DNA of 64,000 nucleotides from Pseudomonas viridiflava (lineage in GTDB: Bacteria; Pseudomonadota; Gammaproteobacteria; Pseudomonadales; Pseudomonadaceae), in contig NZ_UPSE01000533.1 in assembly GCF_900573885.1 (NCBI RefSeq), positions 62,001-126,000 of the forward strand. Reading direction: 5' to 3'. Every line of letters begins with the position of its first letter. The first letter of the stretch is position 1. The notes below the pieces were generated by a model. The model was not told the DNA's origin, searched no databases, and worked only from the letters and a program-made list of their open reading frames with translations. This document shows, in pieces, positions 11,943 through 17,199 of this stretch. The position numbers and the translations under genes are program-made.

Positions 11943-12075
11943 ACGCGCCGGATCTTCGGCCAGGCTGCGTTAAAAACAGGATTCGCAATGCTCATTGGCT
12001 ACAGCCAACTGCGCTTGCTCACCTGTTTTTGCCTTGCCTGACCTTTGCTCCGACACGTTAAGAAGGGAATTAATC

Positions 12076-12693
12076 GTGACCAAAACAAAAACAATCGCGG
12101 AGAACCTGATGAACGCTCACGCCCGTTTCACCCATATGCAAGACGGTACCGCCGAGGACTGGGCGATCATTGCTCAGGATTTCATGGCCTTTGCCAAGCT
12201 GTTGCCCGACCGGGTGATGACTCACCTGAAATTGCTGGACGGCGACTTCGGTGGCTTTCCGGTGGACCGTCTGACCCACTCCCTGCAAACCGCCACCCGT
12301 GCCCACCGTGATGGCCGCGATGAGGAATACGTGGTGTGCGCGCTGCTGCATGACATTGGCGACACCCTTGGCACGTTCAACCATCCGGATATCGCCGCGG
12401 CCATGCTCAAGCCGTTTGTGAGCGAGGAAAACCTGTGGATGGTGGAGAAGCACGGCATCTTCCAGGGCTACTACTTCTTCCACCACCTGGGCATGGACCG
12501 GCTGCTGCGCGAGCAATTCAAGGATCACCCGCAGTACCTGCGCACTATCGAGTTCTGCGCTAAGTACGACGCGGCCGCCTTCGACCCGGCCTACGAGCAC
12601 CTGCCGCTGGAGTTCTTCGAGCCCATGCTGCGGCGCCTGTTTTCCCAGCCCAAAAACTCGGTTTATAAGGCCGCCACCGAGCAGGCAATCTGA
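12076..12693 (+). CDS. HD-domain protein, possible di-iron oxygenase
   Basis: 205 residues from GTG at 12076 (GAAGGGA seven bases upstream); an ATG at 12109 with GGAG is a possible alternative. It contains HSLQTATRAHRDGRDEE and ALLHDIGD, the metal-binding core of HD proteins, then HPDIAAAMLKPFVSEE and VEKHGIFQGYYFFHH with further histidines. The compact single-domain shape recalls mixed-valent di-iron oxygenases such as PhnZ and TmpB as much as phosphohydrolases. It follows the Mpo1-like gene by about 130 bases and probably shares its transcript. No specific reaction can be assigned. Confidence 0.75.
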   Translation: MTKTKTIAENLMNAHARFTHMQDGTAEDWAIIAQDFMAFAKLLPDRVMTHLKLLDGDFGGFPVDRLTHSLQTATRAHRDGRDEEYVVCALLHDIGDTLGTFNHPDIAAAMLKPFVSEENLWMVEKHGIFQGYYFFHHLGMDRLLREQFKDHPQYLRTIEFCAKYDAAAFDPAYEHLPLEFFEPMLRRLFSQPKNSVYKAATEQAI

Positions 12694-12873: not shown

Positions 12874-14262
12874 ATGAAGTCAGCCAGTATCGATCGTCCG
12901 ATTGACTTACCTTCTTTACCTTTGCGCGAGTATTACTCGCGGGTTCTGGCTTATATCGCCATGGCGGCCAGCATCGCGGCCGGCACCTTTGTGCAGTATT
13001 TCGGCTACAACATCCTCTGGATGGTGCCCTACGCCCTGCTCTATCCCCATCTTGCCCATCACCTGAGCCAGCGCTTCAAACGCGAACACGCGCGCGAAAC
13101 CGATCTGGTCCTGCTGTTTATCGACTCACTGCATTGCGGCGCCGCCATTGCCCTGCTGGGCTTTTCCGTGGTGCCGAGCCTGATGATCGTGCTGACCCTG
13201 GTGTTCAGCGCCTTGATCATTGGCGGCCTGCGTTACCTCGGCCTGGCGCTGCTGATTACCGTCAGCGGCGTGGTGCTGACCAGCGTGATCGTGCAGCCGG
13301 AAGTCAAAGCCACTACGCCGACACTGGTGTCGCTGATCAGCGTTGTGTTCAGCACGCTCTACATCTGCATCACCGCCTATTTCGTGCACCAACAAGGGCT
13401 GCGCCTGGATGTGGCGCGCAACGAAATCAAGCGTGAGCAGGAAAAGGCGGCGCGTCTGGCCCGAAACCTGGCCAAATACCTGTCGCCGCAGGTGTGGGAA
13501 TCCATCTTCAGTGGCAAGAAAAGCGTGCGACTGGAAACCCAGCGCAAAAAGCTCACGGTGTTTTTCTCCGACATCAAGGGCTTCACCGAGCTGTCGGAAG
13601 AGCTCGAAGCCGAAGCGCTCACCGACCTGCTCAACACCTACCTCAATGAAATGTCGAAGATCACCCTGAAATACGGCGGCACCATCGACAAGTTCATCGG
13701 TGACTGCGTGATGGTGTTCTTCGGCGACCCGTCCAGCCAGGGCGCGAAAAAAGACGCGGTGAACGCGGTGTCCATGGCCATTGCCATGCGCAAGCACATG
13801 AAAGTGCTGCGTCAGCAATGGCGGGCGCAGGGCATTACCAAACCGCTGGAAATCCGCATGGGCTTGAACACCGGATATTGCACCGTGGGCAACTTCGGCG
13901 CCGACACGCGCATGGACTACACCATCATCGGCCGCGACGTGAACCTGGCCAGCCGCCTGGAAAGCGCCGCCGAATCAGGCGAAATTCTGATTTCCCACGA
14001 GACCTACTCGCTGATCAAAGACGTGATCATGTGCCGCGACAAAGGCCAGATCACCGTCAAAGGCTTCACCCGCCCGGTGCAGATTTACCAGGTAGTGGAT
14101 TTCCGCCGCGACCTGGGCGCCGCCTCCAGCTATGTAGAGCATGAACTGCCGGGCTTCTCCATGTACCTGGATACCAATGGCATTCAGAACTACGACAAAG
14201 AGCGCGTGATTCAGGCATTGAACCTGGCGGCGGAGAAGTTGCGCGACAAGGTGATTGTTTAA
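12874..14262 (+). CDS. cyaB: Class III adenylate cyclase with MASE2 sensor
   Basis: 462 residues, matching P. aeruginosa CyaB. The N-terminal half has about six hydrophobic segments (MASE2 membrane sensor). The C-terminal half is a class III cyclase domain with metal-binding Asp233 in FFSDIKGFTE and Asp277 in DKFIGDCVMVFF, the Lys of DKFIGD as base-selecting residue, and DYTIIGRDVNLASRLE carrying the transition-state Asn and Arg. In P. aeruginosa it makes the cAMP that activates Vfr. It converges on agt, with a REP cluster between. Ribosome binding is weak. Confidence 0.92.
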   Translation: MKSASIDRPIDLPSLPLREYYSRVLAYIAMAASIAAGTFVQYFGYNILWMVPYALLYPHLAHHLSQRFKREHARETDLVLLFIDSLHCGAAIALLGFSVVPSLMIVLTLVFSALIIGGLRYLGLALLITVSGVVLTSVIVQPEVKATTPTLVSLISVVFSTLYICITAYFVHQQGLRLDVARNEIKREQEKAARLARNLAKYLSPQVWESIFSGKKSVRLETQRKKLTVFFSDIKGFTELSEELEAEALTDLLNTYLNEMSKITLKYGGTIDKFIGDCVMVFFGDPSSQGAKKDAVNAVSMAIAMRKHMKVLRQQWRAQGITKPLEIRMGLNTGYCTVGNFGADTRMDYTIIGRDVNLASRLESAAESGEILISHETYSLIKDVIMCRDKGQITVKGFTRPVQIYQVVDFRRDLGAASSYVEHELPGFSMYLDTNGIQNYDKERVIQALNLAAEKLRDKVIV

Positions 14263-14285
14263 GTAGAAATCGGCGTTTACCGCCG

Positions 14286-14385
14286 CCCTCTCCCCCGGCC
14301 CCTCTCCCGCAAGCGGGCGAGGGGAGACAATCCAAACGGCGATCAGCCCCCTCGCCCGCTTGCGGGAGAGGGTTGGGGAGAGGGG
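14286..14385. repeat. CCCTCTCC-type repeat, copy 1
   Basis: A long inverted structure: CCCTCTCCCCCGGCCCCTCT with CCCGCAAGCGGG followed after 35 bases by its complement ending GGGTTGGGGAGAGGGG. The same element occurs at 27364 and 39730. It lies between convergent cyaB and agt and may stop transcription from both sides. Confidence 0.85.
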
Positions 14386-14388
14386 AAC

Positions 14389-15414
14389 TTACGCGATGAC
14401 CTTAATCTCAAGCTCAACCACTTCCCCGTCCATCAACGGCTGCTGCGCCAGAAACTCCAGCGCCGACACCCGCCACGATTGTTTTTGCGCCGCCTGTGCA
14501 CAGCGCTGCCGGTCCAGGCTCAACGCGGCCAGGCACGCGCGACGCAGGTCGTCGTCCATCACGCCGCTAACGCCCTCTTCCAGCACGTCCAGCGGACCCG
14601 GCACGGGAAACGCCGCCACCGGCGTGCCGCAGGCCAGCGCTTCGAGCATTACCAGCCCGTAAGTATCGGTACGCGAGGGAAACACCAGTACGCTCGCGCT
14701 GGCATACGCCTGGGCCAACGCGGCGCCGTGTTGGTAGCCGTGAAAACGCACCTGCGGGTAGCAGCTTTGCAGCTCGGCACGCTGCGGGCCGTCGCCGACG
14801 ACGTGTTTCTCGCCGGGAAGCTCCAGGCGCAAGAACGCGTCCAGGTTTTTCTCGGGCGCAACGCGCCCTACGTACAAAAACACCAGCGTGCCCGGGGTCT
14901 GCAGGGTCGGTGTAAAGCGCGCCAGGTCTACGCCTTTGCGCCACAACCGCAGGCGTTGCAGGCCCCAACTGGCGAACTCGCCACGCAGGCGCTCGGTGGT
15001 TACCAGCACCGCCTGACTTGGCCGATGAAACCGGCGCAGGTAGGCGTAGCCCCAGGCCAGCGGAATGCGTGGCCAGCGCGTGTGCACATATTCGGGAAAG
15101 CGCGTGTGAATGGCGCTGGAGAACGCCAGCCCGCGTTTGCTCAACCAGCGCCGTGCGGTCCAGCCCAGCGGGCCTTCGGTGGCGAGGTGAACACAGTCGG
15201 GGCGAAAGTCGCGTATGGCCGGGCCGACTCGCCACAGGTCCCACACCAGCGGAATCTCCGGGTAAGTGGGACACGGTACGTGGCGAAAATCTGCCGGCGA
15301 CAGCAGCTTGACCCAATGGCCCAGCCCGCGCAGTTCGGCAATGAGCGCCTGCAGGCTGGTGACCACGCCGTTGACCTGCGGCGTCCAGGCGTCGGTGACG
15401 ATCAGAATCCTCAT
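14389..15414 (-). CDS. agt: Glycolipid glycosyltransferase Agt-like (GT4)
   Basis: 341 residues with the GT-B fold of family 4. The N-terminal domain has VNGVVTSLQALIAEL and a central EYVHTRWPRIP region; the donor-binding C-terminal domain has YVGRVAPEKNLD, VVGDGPQR and SRTDTYGLVMLEALACG, the D/E-x7-E retaining motif. Its ATG overlaps the plcP stop (ATGA). This plcP-agt pair is the phosphate-starvation lipid remodelling module: the transferase adds sugar to the diacylglycerol released by PlcP. In P. aeruginosa the homologous pair is PA3219-PA3218, as I recall. The sugar donor cannot be read from sequence. Confidence 0.85.
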   Translation of the reverse strand: MRILIVTDAWTPQVNGVVTSLQALIAELRGLGHWVKLLSPADFRHVPCPTYPEIPLVWDLWRVGPAIRDFRPDCVHLATEGPLGWTARRWLSKRGLAFSSAIHTRFPEYVHTRWPRIPLAWGYAYLRRFHRPSQAVLVTTERLRGEFASWGLQRLRLWRKGVDLARFTPTLQTPGTLVFLYVGRVAPEKNLDAFLRLELPGEKHVVGDGPQRAELQSCYPQVRFHGYQHGAALAQAYASASVLVFPSRTDTYGLVMLEALACGTPVAAFPVPGPLDVLEEGVSGVMDDDLRRACLAALSLDRQRCAQAAQKQSWRVSALEFLAQQPLMDGEVVELEIKVIA

Positions 15415-16310
15415 GCAGTGGTTTCGCGCGCAACCGCGTCGGCAACCACAGGCGCAGGCGGCGTCGCCATGACGGCACCCAGGGCGGCGGTGGCGACATC
15501 GCCTGCCGCTTGCTCCTGCGCCGCTTGCTGGGCCTGGCGCGCGTGGTCATCAGCCAGACGGTAAAGCTCGATGCTGCCGTCCAGGTGTTCGATCAGCGCG
15601 GTGCAGCTTTCCACCCAGTCGCCGCAGTTCATGTATTCCACGTCGCCCATCTGGCGAATTTCGGCGTGGTGAATGTGGCCGCACACCACGCCGTTAAAGC
15701 CGCGCTTGTTGCATTCGTGGGCGATGGCTTCTTCAAAATCGCTGATGAAGTTCACCGCCGATTTGACCTTGTGCTTCAGGTACGCCGAGAGCGACCAGTA
15801 GCCGTAGCCGTACTTGCGCCGCCAGTGGTTGAGCCAGCGGTTCAGCGTAAGGGTGAATTCGTAGGCCGAGTCGCCGAGGAAGGCCAGCCAGCGGTGGTAG
15901 CGGGTGATGACGTCGAACTGGTCGCCGTGGATCACCAGCAGGCGACGGCCGTCTGCGGTGATGTGCTCGGCTTCGTCCACCAACTGGATATTGCCAAGAA
16001 TCAGCTTGGAATAACGACGCAGAAACTCGTCGTGGTTGCCGGTGACGTACACCACTTCAGTGCCGCGCTTGCTCATGGTCAGCAGCCGGCGAATGACGTT
16101 GGTGTGGGCCTGGGGCCAGAAGATGCCGCTGCGCAGGCGCCAGCCGTCGATGATGTCGCCTACCAGGTAAACCTTGTCGGCCTGATAGCGTTTGAGAAAC
16201 TGCGACAGGTGTTCGGCCTGACAATCGCGCGTGCCCAGGTGCACGTCGGAGATCCACAGGGTACGTACACGTTGCTTACGGCTGGGTTTTACGAGCTGAG
16301 CGCTGCTCAT
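15411..16310 (-). CDS. plcP: PlcP-like phospholipase C metallophosphoesterase
   Basis: 299 residues from the ATG at 16310; the open frame extends 47 codons further but across the PhoB-type repeats. Calcineurin-like metal motifs are complete: SDVHLG, GDIIDGW, GNHDE, HGDQFD and GHIHHAEI. The family (COG2908) was first named for LpxH-like hydrolases, but this branch next to a GT4 gene is PlcP, which cleaves phosphoglycerolipids to diacylglycerol when phosphate is short. The last 50 residues are an Ala-rich tail. Four PhoB-type half-sites lie 44 to 83 bases upstream. It overlaps agt by four bases. Confidence 0.88.
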   Translation of the reverse strand: MSSAQLVKPSRKQRVRTLWISDVHLGTRDCQAEHLSQFLKRYQADKVYLVGDIIDGWRLRSGIFWPQAHTNVIRRLLTMSKRGTEVVYVTGNHDEFLRRYSKLILGNIQLVDEAEHITADGRRLLVIHGDQFDVITRYHRWLAFLGDSAYEFTLTLNRWLNHWRRKYGYGYWSLSAYLKHKVKSAVNFISDFEEAIAHECNKRGFNGVVCGHIHHAEIRQMGDVEYMNCGDWVESCTALIEHLDGSIELYRLADDHARQAQQAAQEQAAGDVATAALGAVMATPPAPVVADAVARETTA

Positions 16311-16353
16311 GGGGCGGCCTCCGGCAGGGTTTAATGGAGGTTGAGGCCTGCGG

Positions 16354-16393
16354 GTGACCTGCGTGTGACACGGGCAAGACAAACTGATGACAA
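16354..16393 (-). promoter_or_regulatory. Four-repeat PhoB box array upstream of plcP
   Basis: Read on the minus strand, four 7-base half-sites sit at an exact 11-base period: TTGTCAT (16387-16393), TTGTCTT (16376-16382), GTGTCAC (16365-16371) and AGGTCAC (16354-16360). The Pho box consensus is CTGTCAT repeated every 11 bases, so this is two boxes in tandem. A CATTAA at a further 17 bases toward plcP could serve as the -10 element of a PhoB-dependent promoter. Confidence 0.85.
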
Positions 16394-16449
16394 CGCTTTC
16401 CCGGCGAGTGCAGCGCGGTAAACTGCGCCTCTGTGCTGAGGAGCCCGCC

Positions 16450-17199
16450 ATGCACTCGATTTTGTCCCTGCGCCATTACAGCGATGAGCTGATCGCCCAT
16501 AGCCACAGCCACGCGCAAATCGTCTTCGGCCTGAATGGCCGGCTGGAATTTGAAGTGGAAGGCCACGGCAGCCTGCTGCGCGGCCAGCAACTGTTGGTGA
16601 TTCCCAGCGGCTCCCACCACGCCTGCGAAAGCCGCGAAGGCAGCGATTGCATGGTGTTCGACGTACCCGACAGCGACTGGCTGCGCAGCCGCCTCGGCGC
16701 CCACGCCGACAACGGCCAGCGCCTGCTCGACAGTCCAAAAACCCTGAACCTGGGCGGCGCTCAGCAGCAACTGGTGAACTGGCTGATCAACAGCCCGATT
16801 GCCGATCCGGTCATCGCTCAGCAAGGCGCGGCATTGTTACTGGCAAGCCTGGCGAGCGCGCCCGCCGCCGCGCCTGTGCATCGCGAGCTGCCGCTGGCGA
16901 GCCTCGACCGCTATATCGACCAGCACGCGGCTCACCCCATGCAGGTGGCAGACCTGGCGCGCCTCAGCGGCCTGTCGGCGGCGCGCTTTCACGCCAGGTT
17001 TCTTCAACAAACCGGTCAAACGCCGATGGACTACGTTCGCCAGCGCCGCCTGCAACAGGGCCTGCACCTGCTGCGTGAAACCGCGCTGGCGGTTGGCGAG
17101 ATTGCCCAGCGCGTCGGCTACGCCTCGCAGAGCGCCTTCACCGCCGCCCTCGCCCGCCAGTTCAACACCACGCCACGGCAAGTGCGACGCGACACCTGA
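16450..17199 (+). CDS. AraC-family regulator with cupin domain
   Basis: 249 residues from the ATG at 16450 (GAGGAG upstream). The N-terminal cupin half has HSHSHAQIVFGL, with the metal or ligand histidines of small AraC regulators, and GSHHACES. The C-terminal half has the two HTH motifs (QVADLARLSGLSAARFHARF, VGEIAQRVGYASQSAFTAAL). It is divergent from plcP, and the PhoB array lies in the shared upstream region, though oriented to plcP. CsaA-like and EamA genes follow, the same order as in P. aeruginosa (PA3220 to PA3222 in memory). The effector is unknown. Confidence 0.85.
   Translation: MHSILSLRHYSDELIAHSHSHAQIVFGLNGRLEFEVEGHGSLLRGQQLLVIPSGSHHACESREGSDCMVFDVPDSDWLRSRLGAHADNGQRLLDSPKTLNLGGAQQQLVNWLINSPIADPVIAQQGAALLLASLASAPAAAPVHRELPLASLDRYIDQHAAHPMQVADLARLSGLSAARFHARFLQQTGQTPMDYVRQRRLQQGLHLLRETALAVGEIAQRVGYASQSAFTAALARQFNTTPRQVRRDT

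Follow-up and report, generated by a model that had tools for sequence, protein, structure and literature searches.

Directly upstream of plcP, four TGTCA-type half-sites follow one another at a period of exactly 11 bases (16393-16350, minus strand) in the 64,000-nucleotide stretch of Pseudomonas viridiflava DNA that we analyzed as a whole (hereafter the window). It is highly probable that this array is the PhoB-dependent promoter of a plcP-agt1 operon, with half-sites 3 and 4 proposed as the activating site and half-sites 1 and 2 as strengthening it. The array is real and widely conserved, and adds one more case to a type of regulation already described in P. aeruginosa. As work on that species has already established the operon and the way it is regulated, the finding in itself is an ordinary one; what is added here are similar arrays at agt2, ugd and an olsB-like gene, the tie of the array to plcP, and CTTTCA pairs in the promoters of tctD.

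The half-sites were read directly on the minus strand. Half-site 1 occupies 16383-16393 (TTGTCATCAGT, with TTGTCAT from 16393), half-site 2 16372-16382 (TTGTCTTGCCC, TTGTCTT from 16382), half-site 3 16361-16371 (GTGTCACACGC, GTGTCAC from 16371) and half-site 4 16350-16360 (AGGTCACCCGC, AGGTCAC from 16360, with G at position 3). Together they give 24 of 28 consensus matches in the tandem 11-base arrangement of a Pho box, and the four of them, spanning 44 bases before a co-regulated gene, also have the form of a quadripartite box, where co-regulation refers to the match with the P. aeruginosa operon by way of Table 1 of PMC4513871 and PMC8528852. Further along the same strand lie the hexamer CAACCT (16338-16343), a putative -10 element whose first base lies 17 bases beyond that of half-site 4, an AAA (16330-16332) as the proposed transcription start region, and GGAGG (16318-16322), the proposed ribosome-binding sequence of plcP, which was read directly and whose columns are conserved among relatives. 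The ATG of plcP is at 16310. The span first assigned to the feature, 15411-16393, corresponds to the array plus plcP, and agt1 extends to 14389.

Conservation in close relatives was the check that the sequence-only reading had put forward, and the 11-base repeats are kept at every genus locus. Among 119 genomes of the genus, plcP gave a strong match in 108, weak matches only in 4 and no match in 7 (in one locus, G034, the match was split in two and only the upstream region was used). The array precedes plcP in 108/108 loci, beginning 79-84 bases upstream of the start codon (79-85 when the family and named loci described below are included), with scores of 19-25 out of 28 and a mean of 22.3 compared with 15.4 for shuffles; a single one of 2160 dinucleotide shuffles of these loci attained its own observed score. 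The related genomes in these and the following counts are not independent samples. Conservation is uneven along the array, as all four half-sites reach at least 5 of 7 matches in 17 of the 108 loci and the first three do so in 87. Half-site 4 is usually a weak consensus match, and the C and A of TGTCA in half-site 3 are identical in all 108 relatives. In a sample of the family, plcP was found in 29 of 59 genomes and 8 of 19 genera at E 1e-60, and the array was above threshold in each of the 27 newly read plcP loci, of which 24 belong to seven further genera. The 80 named records were the top-ranked ones among 517; they overlap in part with the genus sample and include four labelled Pseudomonadaceae, Paucimonas, Devosia and Pantoea. 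In 79 of these records the array exceeded the threshold. The sole exception, P. reidholzensis, has lost half-sites 1 and 2 and kept half-sites 3 and 4 together with the hexamer. The fit used for the family and named records gave credit for A and T at the hexamer positions, as did the one behind the ugd and agt2 hexamer results given below; the phase-setting fit used for the genus did not.

When only the half-sites determine the phase, the distance from the start of half-site 4 to the start of CAnnnT is exactly 17 bases in 108/108 genus loci. The three columns of the AAA that follows hold A in 107, 108 and 108 of the 108 aligned plcP upstream regions, and in the same alignment the ribosome-binding sequence comes after them. 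CAACCT agrees with TATAAT at two positions only. The same spacing is found in E. coli phoA, where the second of two half-sites at 11 bases starts 17 bases before TATAGT, which we take to be the -10 element. This genome encodes PhoB (TIGR02154, 359.6 bits against a cut-off of 296.2), and its phoB gene is preceded by two half-sites placed like half-sites 3 and 4, 17 bases before TCTAAT. The pho box of E. coli is described as taking the place of the -35 region (PMC4971064), and the array at plcP likewise stands where it could replace a -35 element, at a fixed distance of 17 bases from the putative -10. Half-site 1 is lost in 13 of the 108 genus loci, and in 12 of these half-site 4 is a full consensus match. 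Because of the two-site layout at phoA and phoB and these losses of half-site 1, we favor half-sites 3 and 4 as the probable activating PhoB site.

The array would be occupied by phosphorylated PhoB at its 11-base half-sites when phosphate is low. A PhoB dimer on half-sites 3 and 4, at the place of the -35 region, would bring RNA polymerase to the weak -10 element CAnnnT, a second dimer on half-sites 1 and 2 would strengthen the first, and transcription would start approximately 20 bases upstream of plcP. We infer this order and place of dimer binding as well as the start site, and would expect the scheme to hold in this organism. By analogy with relatives, from which PhoB dependence, the enzyme activities and the lipids are known, PlcP would convert membrane phospholipids into diacylglycerol and a released phosphorylated head group, after which Agt1 would add glucose to the diacylglycerol to give a phosphate-free membrane lipid. 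Direct PhoB control had been called very likely from the sequence, and this view is supported by the conservation, the promoter geometry and what is published for relatives in PMC8528852, PMC5082522 and PMC4513871.

The only other four-unit TGTCA array of the genome at a limit of 3 mismatches lies directly upstream of ugd (L118:1501-1538, which is G000:C211:54388-54425, minus strand), a nucleotide-sugar dehydrogenase gene nearest to UDP-glucose 6-dehydrogenases. All 51 ugd orthologues of at least 70% identity among 398 genomes carry it, with scores of 19-25 at 73-86 bases before the start, and a few of them are without half-site 1. A search of 12 named genomes found the array-bearing type of ugd in 7, each with an array score of 23-24. 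The ugd hexamer, TGCAAT, lacks the A of the plcP hexamer; it lies at exactly 17 bases in 40 of the 51 orthologues and is shifted or different in the others. Three ugd paralogues (54-57% identity) were read, and their best array scores were 16-18. As a separate observation, the ugd paralogues L212, L213, L216, L220, L221 and L224 have a two-unit PhoB-like box approximately 96 bases before the start, for example ATGTCATTTTGCTGACAC, which does not fit the 17-base rule, and the two-unit box of paralogue L328 likewise falls outside it.

A weaker array with the same layout and the hexamer CACACT is located upstream of agt2, a homologue 38% identical to agt1 (L230:2473-2540, minus strand). In all 30 genus loci read (of 116 genomes with a match), the best fit shows xAnnnT at 17 bases, and the mean score of 22.97, compared with 15.36 in shuffles, was attained by none of 300 shuffles. 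In addition, a lower-quality array whose hexamer is TAGCCT is found 118 bases before the start of an olsB-like gene (PF13444; L363:1287-1342); this was read in one genome, where it scored 23.0 against 19.0 for the next best place on that strand. The PF13444 profile also gives a match in E. coli, and in P. aeruginosa PA4350-PA4351 are presumably olsBA. Taken together, these loci present one promoter layout that is legible from sequence for several lipid-remodelling genes at once.

Agt2 uses UDP-glucuronic acid (PMC8528852), from which we infer that ugd may feed Agt2 by supplying UDP-glucuronate. No statement of this link was recognized in the limited collection of literature searched, and PMC8528852 does not use the word dehydrogenase in its main text. 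If the link is right, the UDP-glucose dehydrogenase under PhoB control, described as somewhat unclear in its role in P. putida (PMC5082522), would gain a likely function. Co-occurrence of the array-bearing ugd and agt2 is uninformative, with agt2 being present in 116 of the 119 genus genomes. The array-bearing ugd type (17 of 119 genomes) and an agt1 beside plcP (20 loci) coincide in 14 genomes, a count that is uncorrected for kinship.

A serious alternative, against which we lean only slightly, is that the array is a two-regulator switch, in which PhoB activates and the tricarboxylate-responsive regulator TctD represses through the downstream half-sites, so that the operon would answer both phosphate and carbon source. 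This is how the quadripartite box of P. aeruginosa is described, where agt1 (grtA), ugd and PA4350 are up in a tctD mutant (PMC4513871). A TctD-like gene is present in our genome (best NCBIfam match TctD at 289.4 bits, short of its cut-off of 337), adjoining, by eye, sensor-kinase-like and OprD-type-porin-like genes, and TctD matches occur in 114 of the 119 genus genomes. All 41 tctD upstream regions read of these 114 (L361:784-1034 and L365-L404) contain two CTTTCA units 11 bases apart that together match at 11 or more of 12 positions; such a pair occurs in none of 2050 shuffles and in 1 of 108 plcP upstream regions. Given the TctD autoregulation reported in PMC4513871, these pairs are likely sites of TctD self-control. 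They differ by one base from the CTGTCA of PhoB, and at that base, position 3, the plcP arrays have G in units 1-3 (104, 106 and 106 of 108) and T in unit 4 in 91 of 108, as would fit a TctD bound downstream. The T at this place, together with the assignment of PhoB to the upstream part and TctD to the directly downstream part in PMC4513871, also speaks against half-sites 3 and 4 as the activating pair.

Several points weigh on the other side. At the locus studied here, all four half-sites have G at position 3 and look PhoB-type. Only 27 of 108 plcP arrays have a half-site 4 that agrees with TTTCA in at least 4 of its 5 bases, and the CTTTCA pair is nearly absent from plcP upstream regions. 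Furthermore, agt2 has the array and yet does not appear in the TctD table of PMC4513871. Five of the 119 genomes have no TctD match at E 1e-70, one of these being 93% complete, and the four of these that carry plcP all keep four half-sites and the T in half-site 4. A relation between the presence of TctD and the number of half-sites thus found no support in these four genomes, which are few and partly related.

We propose that competition of TctD with PhoB for half-sites 3 and 4 would reconcile the facts on the T in unit 4. A joint reading, which is possible but which we hold only tentatively, would have the layout of four half-sites and a hexamer at about 17 bases run a phosphate-saving lipid programme of plcP (with or without agt1), agt2, ugd and olsB in Pseudomonas, with PhoB activating from half-sites 3 and 4, TctD repressing by competition there rather than by binding next to PhoB, and position 3 of half-site 4 setting the strength of a carbon-source veto. 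If this were true, the veto would act more weakly in the species of the window, with its G at that position, than in most of its relatives, and the telling apart of PhoB and TctD sites would have a testable, one-base account.

plcP (15411-16310, minus strand) encodes a metallophosphoesterase of phospholipase C type of 299 aa, with Pfam Metallophos and Metallophos_2 above cut-off and metal-site motifs seen by eye. Its name is given by relation to P. aeruginosa PA3219 (PMC8528852), and a search of solved structures with PlcP returned weak relatives only, the best being UDP-2,3-diacylglucosamine hydrolases. agt1 (14389-15414, minus strand) encodes a GT4-type glycosyltransferase of 341 aa (Pfam Glyco_trans_1_4, Glyco_transf_4 and Glycos_transf_1 above cut-off), and its first four bases are the end of plcP, so that the ATGA overlap noted earlier is present at 15414-15411; with the 4-base overlap and these families, plcP followed by agt1 has the form of a PlcP-Agt operon. 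The pair was thus correctly seen to lie under the array here, but this is not the rule, as only 20 of the 107 genus loci that could be assessed have an agt1 match following plcP (18 of the 20 overlapping by 4 bases) while the array is constant; L099 has too little downstream sequence to be judged, and only agt1 genes adjacent to plcP were counted. The array therefore belongs to plcP. In other genera agt1 adjoins plcP in 20 of 24 loci, and the pair may be the older arrangement, since lost in much of the genus. Beyond agt1 we noted, by eye, a G+C-rich inverted repeat at 14285-14385 that looks like a two-way terminator or repeat element and separates agt1 from a convergent gene for a MASE2-domain adenylate/guanylate cyclase (12874-14262). 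The gene at 11995-12693, also near this phosphate-starvation locus, encodes an HD-domain protein that weakly resembles phosphonate-degrading HD oxygenases, at scores far below cut-off.

On the other side of the array lies the divergent AraC-family gene that the sequence-only reading had mentioned (16450-17199, plus strand), recognized by Pfam HTH_18 and HTH_AraC above cut-off on a longer open reading frame, 16387-17199. Its start is probably the ATG at 16450 rather than 16387, because homologues align from there and an ATG stands at that place in 71 of 85. It is very improbable that the array serves this gene or that the AraC protein is the main regulator of plcP, even though a divergent homologue is present in 85 of the 108 genus loci at a fairly constant distance from the array (46-57 bases for 71 of these homologues). 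Where no matching AraC gene is present, in 23 loci, the array and its distance to plcP are kept, which shows the array to be independent of AraC and leaves AraC unsupported as its owner. In addition, the hexamer, the AAA and the ribosome-binding sequence all lie between the array and plcP, and little is conserved over the 30 bases past half-site 1.

The array is also exceptional in number of matches. It takes the top place in the 64-kb window on both strands, and a score of at least 22 is reached only by the array and its own one-unit shift. With the same score at periods of 8, 9, 10, 12, 13 and 14 bases the window never exceeded 20, and when the 250 bases upstream were shuffled 2000 times with dinucleotides preserved, 24 was never attained. 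Four TGTCA units at an 11-base period with at most 3 mismatches occur at two places in the whole 5.5-Mb genome, and a reversed control pattern searched over the same 5.5 Mb with the same mismatch limit gave 0 matches. Scoring with a position matrix had been suggested as a check; a matrix trained on the 51 ugd promoters gives the plcP array 27.8 bits, its one-unit shifts 6.4 and 4.1 bits and the best unrelated place 2.4, and 98 of the 108 plcP arrays of relatives lie above 6.4 bits, with 10 below. Shuffle controls were limited to the plcP arrays of the window and the genus, to the plcP, ugd and agt2 fits and to tctD. Although scores of 18-19 occur at 22 other places in the window, the rarity of such arrays among shuffles (0/2000 here, 1/2160 over the orthologues), the other periods not exceeding 20, and the conservation throughout the genus and in seven further genera, with loss in close relatives looked for and not found, leave practically no room for the repeats being chance matches to a short common word.

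The control that we favor, PhoB acting on plcP, has close counterparts. The E. coli phoA promoter has two half-sites only, and its two upstream positions score 1 and 3 of 7. In P. putida BIRD-1, both PlcP and the UDP-glucose 6-dehydrogenase TuaD were missing in a phoBR mutant under phosphate limitation (Lidbury 2016, PMC5082522); the P. putida-group plcP promoters that we read, BIRD-1 not among them, are without half-site 1. For P. aeruginosa, the Pho box, operon, pathway, lipids, enzyme assays and mutants were reported by Jones 2021 (PMC8528852), where the lipid-remodelling pathway is placed in many Pseudomonas groups and the text gives the plcP-agt1 operon (PA3219-PA3218) a Pho box of two repeats, in contrast to the four half-sites found here. 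Further literature on the subject includes PMC9804370, PMC3348028 and PMC6194859. Similar in promoter form is the quadripartite PhoB-TctD box that Bielecki 2015 (PMC4513871) described in six promoters of P. aeruginosa, a PhoB box plus 22 bases making four parts, at which PhoB activates and TctD counteracts. Table 1 of that paper lists both motifs at seven promoters, only PA3910 having a longer spacer, and by elimination the agt1 (grtA) operon, ugd and PA4350 would be among the six; ugd was unchanged in RNA-seq of a PA14 phoB mutant and changed in RT-PCR with PAO1. The paper places the TctD site immediately after that of PhoB and reports that strong -10/-35 motifs are lacking. The tandem double PhoB box proposed from the sequence thus stands insofar as all four half-sites at our locus look PhoB-type, but its P. 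aeruginosa counterpart is read as PhoB upstream and an opposing TctD downstream, whereas here half-sites 3 and 4 would hold the activating position before a conserved hexamer.
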